NCBI GenBank assembly: GCA_007119615.1
Contig: SKPH01000044.1
Location: forward strand, 1-37,175
DNA: 37,175 nt
From: Syntrophomonadaceae bacterium
Lineage (GTDB): Bacteria; Bacillota; Dethiobacteria; DTU022
Direction of reading: 5' to 3'
Every line of letters starts with the position of its first letter. The stretch's first letter is position 1. Below the pieces are notes generated by a model. The model was not told the origin of the DNA. It saw nothing but the letters and a program-made list of their open reading frames with translations, and ran no database searches. Below are positions 33,212 through 35,015 of the stretch, piece by piece. Position numbers and translations under genes: made by a program.

Positions 33212-33219
33212 ATATTAAC

Positions 33220-33248
33220 TTGACATAATATTTAATACAAGCTACACT
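33220..33248 (+). promoter_or_regulatory. Strong putative sigma-A promoter in recX-rny gap
   Basis: TTGACA (33220-33225)-N17-TACACT (33243-33248); perfect -35, optimal spacing. Confidence 0.8.
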
Positions 33249-33254
33249 TATGAA

Positions 33255-33397
33255 GTAAATCATTATACTTTATGGATGTTCAGTTCATAACTGACAAGAG
33301 AAAGCCTTGTGCCGGAAGGTACTGAGGATATATTAAAAAAGCATACAATCTTTTTGCAGGCTAAGGGATAAGTGTACCTGCGCCTGACCTTTCTCTT
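33255..33397 (+). ncRNA. Candidate structured RNA (unassigned small RNA, 6S-like to be tested, or rny leader aptamer)
   Basis: Hairpin TCAGTT-CAT-AACTGA (33280-33294); 9-bp closing helix AAGAGAAAG (33296-33304)/CTTTCTCTT (33389-33397); abutting 9-bp hairpin CCTTGTGCC-GGAA-GGTAC(t)GAGG (33305-33327) with GNRA loop. Flanked by promoter and terminator. Confidence 0.6.
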
Positions 33398-33399
33398 TT

Positions 33400-33431
33400 A
33401 AGCTGTGTCCTGGACACAGCTTATATTATTT
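33400..33431 (+). terminator. Intrinsic terminator between candidate RNA and rny
   Basis: AAGCTGTGTC-CTG-GACACAGCTT perfect 10-bp stem followed by ATATTATTTT. Confidence 0.8.
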
Positions 33432-33479
33432 TGACGGACTTATCATATCTGCGATCACAATGAGACGGAGGTGAACAAT

Positions 33480-35015
33480 ATGCTTGAAACCTTACTTTTA
33501 ATCATAGCCGCCCTGGCTGTTGGTTTTGGGGGCGGTTATTTAATTCGTAAGATGATTGCTGAAGCTAAGATTTCTTCAGCAGAAACCGCAGCGAAAAAAA
33601 TAATTGAAGAAGCGACCCAGGAAGCAAATGCCTTAAAAAGAGAAAAGCAACTCGAAGCGAAAGAAGAAGCTCACAGACTGAGAACCGAACTGGAGAAAGA
33701 AGGTAAAGAAAGACGTTCAGAGTTACAACGCCTGGAACGGCGGCTGGACCAGAAAGAGGAAAGCCTTGACCGTAAACTAAGTAATGTTGAACACAAGGAA
33801 GAAGAACTTAAAACCAAAGAAGAGGAAATTAAGAGTTTCAGGGAAGAATTGGAGCAGTTACAGCAGAAACAGCTCACAGAATTGGAGCGAGTCTCGGGTA
33901 TGAACACCGAAGATGCCAAAGAACTGCTGCTTCAAAGGGTTCGGGATGAGATTAACCATGAGATGATCAGCATGGTTAAAGAAATGGAAAGCCAGGCTAA
34001 AGCAGAAGGTGAGAAGAAAGCCCGTGAAATAGTAACGCTGGCAATTCAGCGTTATGCTGCAGATCATGTCTCCGAGTCGACTGTTTCCGTTGTATCCCTG
34101 CCAAATGATGAAATGAAAGGCCGGATTATCGGGCGTGAAGGCAGAAACATCAGGGCGTTGGAAACGCTAACCGGAATCGATTTGATTATTGATGATACCC
34201 CGGAAGCGGTGATTATTTCCGGCTTCGATCCAATCAGGCGTGAAGTTGCCCGGCTGGCTCTTGAAAAACTGGTCAGCGATGGCCGAATCCACCCGGCAAG
34301 GATTGAGGAGATTGTTGAAAAGACACGCAAAGAAGTAGATTCACAAATCAAGGAAGAAGGAGAGCGCGCCACATTTGAATCCAGAGTTCACGGCGTGCAT
34401 CCGGAATTAGTAACTTTGCTTGGTAAACTTAAATTCAGAACCAGCTACGGACAAAATGTATTACAGCACTCAATCGAAGTAGCTCATCTGGCAGGGATCA
34501 TGGCCGCAGAATTAGGACTTGACGTTACTTTTGCCAAGAGAGCAGGATTGCTGCATGATATAGGCAAAGCGATCGATCATGAAACCGAGGGTTCCCACGT
34601 CAGTATTGGCGCTGAGGTGGCCAAGAAATACAAGGAGTCCCCGGCGATTGTCAATGCAATCGAAGCTCACCATGGCGATGTTGATTTTAACACCATGGAA
34701 GCAGTGCTAATTCAGGCAGCCGATGCAATTTCTGCCGTTCGTCCCGGGGCCAGGCGGGAAACGCTGGAAGCCTATATTAAACGACTGGAAAAACTGGAAA
34801 ATATCGCTGATTCGTTCGAAGGCGTGGAGAAGTCTTACGCTATTCATGCCGGGCGGGAAATCAGAATTATGGTTAAACCCGATCGGATTGACGATTATAC
34901 CTCTATCCAGGTGGCCAGGGATATAGTTAAAAAAATCGAAGGCGAATTGGAATATCCCGGACAAATTAAAGTTACCGTAATTCGGGAAACGAGAGCTGTC
35001 GACTACGCCAAGTAA
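33480..35015 (+). CDS. rny: Ribonuclease Y
   Basis: N-terminal TM helix, long coiled-coil, KH ([29 protein letters not shown]), HD domain ([17 protein letters not shown]). ATG at 33480 after ggaggtg. Confidence 0.97.

Follow-up and report, generated by a model that had tools for sequence, protein, structure and literature searches.

A putative conditional-termination leader of the RNase Y gene rny in a Syntrophomonadaceae bacterium and across much of the phylum Bacillota

In Gram-positive bacteria, RNase Y sets off a large part of mRNA turnover; outside Bacillus subtilis it is an open question how the amount of the enzyme is adjusted to the RNA load. Among the systems that resemble the one described here, ribosomal-protein and PyrR-type attenuation leaders exert autogenous control by means of a promoter, a folded leader, a mutually exclusive antiterminator and terminator, and a single target operon. 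In B. subtilis, RNase Y autoregulates through the 164-nt 5' untranslated region (UTR) of rny, transcribed from a sigma-A promoter; the enzyme cleaves both the UTR and the open reading frame (ORF), decay by RNase J1 follows, and no terminator is mentioned (PMC10303841). The B. subtilis rny mRNA is also ~64-fold enriched on RNA polymerase according to RNA immunoprecipitation sequencing (RIP-seq), which suggests a tie of rny mRNA to the polymerase; the associated mRNA is full-length, and neither a leader element nor a terminator was identified in it (PMC11077062). Here we analyze the 268-bp gap upstream of rny in a 37,175-nt stretch (contig SKPH01000044.1, assembly GCA_007119615.1; hereafter the window) from a 1.06-Mb, 69.8% complete draft genome of a Syntrophomonadaceae bacterium. 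We consider it likely that positions 33220-33430 of the forward strand, on which all features below lie, comprise the promoter and a transcription-attenuation leader of rny with a terminator/antiterminator switch, RNase Y feedback being the most likely signal. In the searchable literature, which lacks most subscription journals, we found no account of a terminator leader ahead of rny.

The proposed leader shares with ribosomal-protein and PyrR-type leaders the promoter, the folded leader, the exclusive antiterminator/terminator pair, and the single target operon, but it differs from them in having no sequence or structure match in Rfam and in targeting a global decay endonuclease. Like the B. 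subtilis rny UTR, it would control rny through a long sigma-A-transcribed UTR and thereby keep RNase Y supply steady, but control there is by mRNA cleavage (PMC10303841), whereas a conserved terminator/antiterminator pair is found here. The gap contains, in order, the promoter, a structured RNA, an intrinsic terminator, and the ribosome binding site of rny, which is the layout of transcription attenuation, with promoter, leader, and terminator ahead of the gene.

The main feature of the leader is the antiterminator, which was missed in the first-pass annotation of this DNA. Folds of homologues revealed it: the conserved 5' segment at 33278-33292, GUUCAGnnCAUAACU, is the complement of AGCUGUGUCCUGGAC at 33401-33415, which comprises the 5' arm, the loop, and the start of the 3' arm of the terminator. 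The two structures are mutually exclusive, and the antiterminator stacks on the closing helix P1. A 5' hairpin proposed earlier at 33280-33294 corresponds to no conserved helix, its sequence being the 5' half of the antiterminator. Changes on both antiterminator strands occur in L020 and L023 (GUCUG/CAGAC; CCUGG..ACACA/UGUGU..CCAG), a C-G pair replaces U-A in L027, and L096 carries matching insertions. In other families, complementarity is retained with other letters, namely GUGUGGG/CCCACAC in f7, UGUGGAAAUACAA/UUGUGUUUCCACA (13 bp) in f4, and CAGGGUC/GAUCCUG in one genome of f5. When the 25-nt element beside P1 was used in a duplex swap test (an earlier version with a 75-nt 5' window proved too broad, with a mixed outcome), the mean duplex energy was -12.2 kcal/mol for cognate pairs vs -7.5 +/- 0.26 kcal/mol with terminators of other families, none of 2000 draws being as good; swaps within a family were also worse than the cognate pairing (4, 5, and 0 of 2000 in f1, f5, and f7, respectively). 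In family f1, 83% of the cells in antiterminator columns are paired, compared with 27-46% when the partners are slid, and five pairs show two-sided changes vs 2.3 in shuffles (7 of 500). An exclusive antiterminator supported by covariation is thus present, weakly so in f5. Folded in silico, transcripts that lack the terminator 3' arm form the antiterminator in 37/37 leaders of f1, 18/18 of f7, and 2/2 of f4, while the full transcript of the window folds with the terminator, the form favoured on average by complete transcripts in f1, f5, and f7.

The region upstream of rny was recovered by DNA search in nearly all genomes of the family, mostly in the order recA-recX-leader-rny, and a covariance model (CM) found a leader copy ahead of rny in 39 of the 43, with second matches in these genomes being antisense to the same site. 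Of the four genomes without a copy, rny itself was undetected in two, and in another, G012, the contig breaks off within the terminator. Nine weak matches in other families of the class all lie directly upstream of rny, and the strict arrangement of promoter, terminator, and rny occurs in 63/85 cases in the class vs 0.1 in shuffles. A search of 85,462 species genomes with the exact terminator pattern returned only 27 stretches, in Syntrophomonadaceae, Bacillota, or Clostridia DTU022 metagenome-assembled genomes. In L104 and L105 (family f5), recX was undetected between recA and rny, and in L047 (2212-3766) two small ORFs, one of them lipoprotein-like, separate recX from the leader; the leader still adjoins rny in these cases and is therefore not an element of recX.

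Outside the class, we sampled the DNA ahead of rny in 60 further genomes, drawn from 59 families of the phylum. A promoter followed by a strong terminator and rny was detected in 33 of the 60, compared with none in shuffles. The terminator CCGAGTTTCTACTCGG is common to many of these leaders, taking the form (A)CCGAGTTTCTACTCGGT(T)n. Across 160 genomes, all 13 matches to a strict CCGAG-type terminator pattern lie upstream of rny, as do 29 of the 30 distinct sites matched by a looser pattern. Apart from the one remaining terminator site, at G215:C7:61778-61801, the element is associated with the RNase gene alone. The phylum leaders have a strong closing helix beside the terminator (-27.5 vs -18.7 when swapped, 0/2000), and their 5' end, often GGGAGAAACU, is complementary to the terminator motif AGUUUCU (-8.2 vs -6.9, 2 of 2000). 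AUAGAU-like and GAGAAAC motifs also exceed shuffles in these leaders. Position, layout, and the shared motif make a common ancestor of the class and phylum forms likely. The sequences are best read as a conditional-termination leader of rny that is phylum-wide and has so far escaped annotation; it would add a new family to RNA annotation.

Sequence comparison shows these parts, the exclusive pairings, their covariation, and the association with rny; from them we infer how the leader may be transcribed, switch, and respond to a signal. RNA polymerase would start at ~33255 and produce a folded domain in which P1 closes P2, P4, and an AU-rich junction. If the emerging 5' arm of the terminator (33401-33415) pairs with 33278-33292, the duplex would stack on P1 and block the terminator, and rny would be transcribed; if the terminator hairpin (33399-33423) forms instead, transcription would stop near 33430 and release an RNA of ~175 nt. 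The P1 domain would set the balance between the two forms. The signal is most likely RNase Y supply, with RNase Y binding or cutting the nascent leader to give negative feedback. Such autogenous control is suggested because only rny carries the leader, and it is our preferred guess, held tentatively and at slightly less than even confidence. With still less confidence, and on the doubtful side, we consider a broader possibility that this phylum-wide RNA class gauges RNA-decay or transcription capacity, as free RNase Y or RNA polymerase, and uses attenuation to tune RNase Y synthesis, which would link transcription to mRNA decay; a role of the polymerase is left possible because of the enrichment of rny mRNA on it in B. 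subtilis. The conserved leader makes the matching of RNase Y to RNA load a testable question.

Several observations weigh against this interpretation. The near invariance of both strands keeps the shuffle test of the f1 antiterminator modest (3-7 of 500), and related sequences are not independent. In f5 the antiterminator is weak, being formed in the prefix fold by 8/19 leaders, and the cognate pairing barely beats pairing with other families (34 of 2000). The U tract is interrupted in the genome studied here (TATATTATTTT), 27 of the 60 sampled phylum genomes gave no strict detection of promoter, terminator, and rny, and the case for an autogenous signal is drawn from target specificity and analogy.

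Of the alternatives, a small-molecule riboswitch, in which a metabolite or nucleotide would bind the P1-P2-P4 domain and shift the balance between antiterminator and terminator, survives best, although we regard it as improbable. The aptamer-like multi-helix domain, with its conserved single-stranded motifs and the switchable terminator directly after it, speaks for this reading, as does the attenuation layout, which is typical of riboswitches; but metabolite riboswitches usually govern several pathway genes, whereas rny is the sole associated gene in the genomes searched, and the core diverges strongly between families, which differ in P1 and junction sequences. Compared with Rfam 15, the leader had no match reaching a gathering score, and relaxing the threshold to E<=10 brought up one chance-level match (RT-17, E 5.4); leaders of other phylum genomes likewise gave no match beyond chance level. 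On these scans of the window and the phylum leaders we rejected all Rfam classes (riboswitch, T-box, or other cis-regulatory). The terminator sequence occurs once in the genome of the window, and its palindrome was accordingly rejected as a regulon operator.

A fixed attenuator, which senses nothing and lets a constant fraction of polymerases read through, has a low probability. It would fit the fact that no signal has been shown so far, as well as the terminator form being favoured in f1 by ~5 kcal/mol on average, but the compensatory upkeep of an exclusive pairing across families and the conserved folded core exceed what it needs. Slightly less probable again is a trans-acting small RNA (sRNA) that happens to precede rny, its 3' end being the terminator and rny being transcribed from elsewhere. 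Its own promoter and a strong terminator, nearly invariant in f1, would suit such an RNA; against it, the association with rny holds across the phylum despite changed upstream genes, the 5' element and the terminator coevolve as alternatives, and between terminator and rny there is no strong conserved promoter, the only promoter-like sites (20/122 leaders) being weak and unconserved. A divergent 6S RNA, to which the ~175-nt length and the closing helix bear a resemblance, can practically be dismissed, as the Rfam 6S model (RF00013) did not match the rny leader and 6S RNA scores above the cut-off at other loci in 86 of 98 class genomes. Of the two options offered by the first-pass annotation, the independent sRNA or 6S RNA therefore lacks support, and the conditional-termination leader of rny gains support from the exclusive antiterminator, its cross-family covariation, and the association with rny class-wide and across much of the phylum. 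Two genomes, G055 and G076, have two 6S RNA copies each over the cut-off.

The remaining elements of the putative leader largely bear out the first-pass description. The sigma-A type promoter TTGACA-N17-TACACT (33220-33248) has its boxes at 33220-33225 and 33243-33248, and both are kept in the family alignment (-35 CTTGACATAA, -10 TAnAnT). An AU-rich, unconserved 5' segment (33255-33277), whose start is placed by promoter spacing, precedes the antiterminator 5' element GUUCAGUUCAUAACU. The 9-bp closing helix P1, predicted correctly, pairs AAGAGAAAG (33296-33304) with CTTTCTCTT (33389-33397; P1 3' strand CUUUCUCUU). The P2 hairpin (33305-33327) is as described, with a GGAA loop in this genome, and 7/9 of its pairs show two-sided changes. 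It is followed by a junction (33328-33350) with the consensus AUAGAU (here AUAUAU) and an A-rich stretch; the motif is enriched over shuffles in f1 (33/38 vs 2.9), f5 (16/19 vs 2.6), and the phylum leaders (15/29 vs 2.8). The P4 hairpin (33356-33386), CAGGC..GCCUG with an inner helix, has pairs (helices 3 and 4) that covary across homologues. The intrinsic terminator AAGCUGUGUCCUGGACACAGCUU with its U-rich tail (33399-33430; hairpin 33399-33423), also anticipated, is conserved in homologues, its 5' arm and loop being the 3' half of the antiterminator. The RNA is compact, as had been noted: 33255-33430 folds with -54.2 kcal/mol vs -37.1 +/- 3.8 kcal/mol for shuffles (z -4.6).

Conserved in the family alignment are the -35 and -10 boxes, GUUCAGnnCAUAAC, P1, P2, P4, and AUAGAU with the A-rich stretch; the terminator is nearly invariant. 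RNAalifold applied to the raw MAFFT alignment yielded P2 and the terminator only, and a CM-based alignment was used instead (A3, 39 rows, including one antisense match on the reverse strand, L006). In it, two-sided changes occur in 18/34 pairs vs 10.2 in shuffles, and 93% of the cells in helices are paired vs 40-51% with partners slid. Swapping P1 strands weakened the helix from -9.5 for cognate pairs to -5.7 (0/2000 draws as good). The covariation that the first-pass annotation had suggested seeking in relatives thus supports P1, P2, and P4. Two further pairings proposed there fared less well: AGGTAC/GTACCT is unconserved, with GGCAC in most homologues, and AAAAAG/CTTTTT forms in the minimum free energy structure of the window, although its sequence varies among homologues.

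Downstream of the terminator lie the ribosome binding site region (33462-33479, GGAGGTG) and the controlled gene rny (33480-35015), identified as RNase Y by the first-pass annotation and conserved synteny, with ATG at 33480 most likely the start codon. In L021, ~300 nt separate the leader terminator from rny, a distance far above that in other members of the family.
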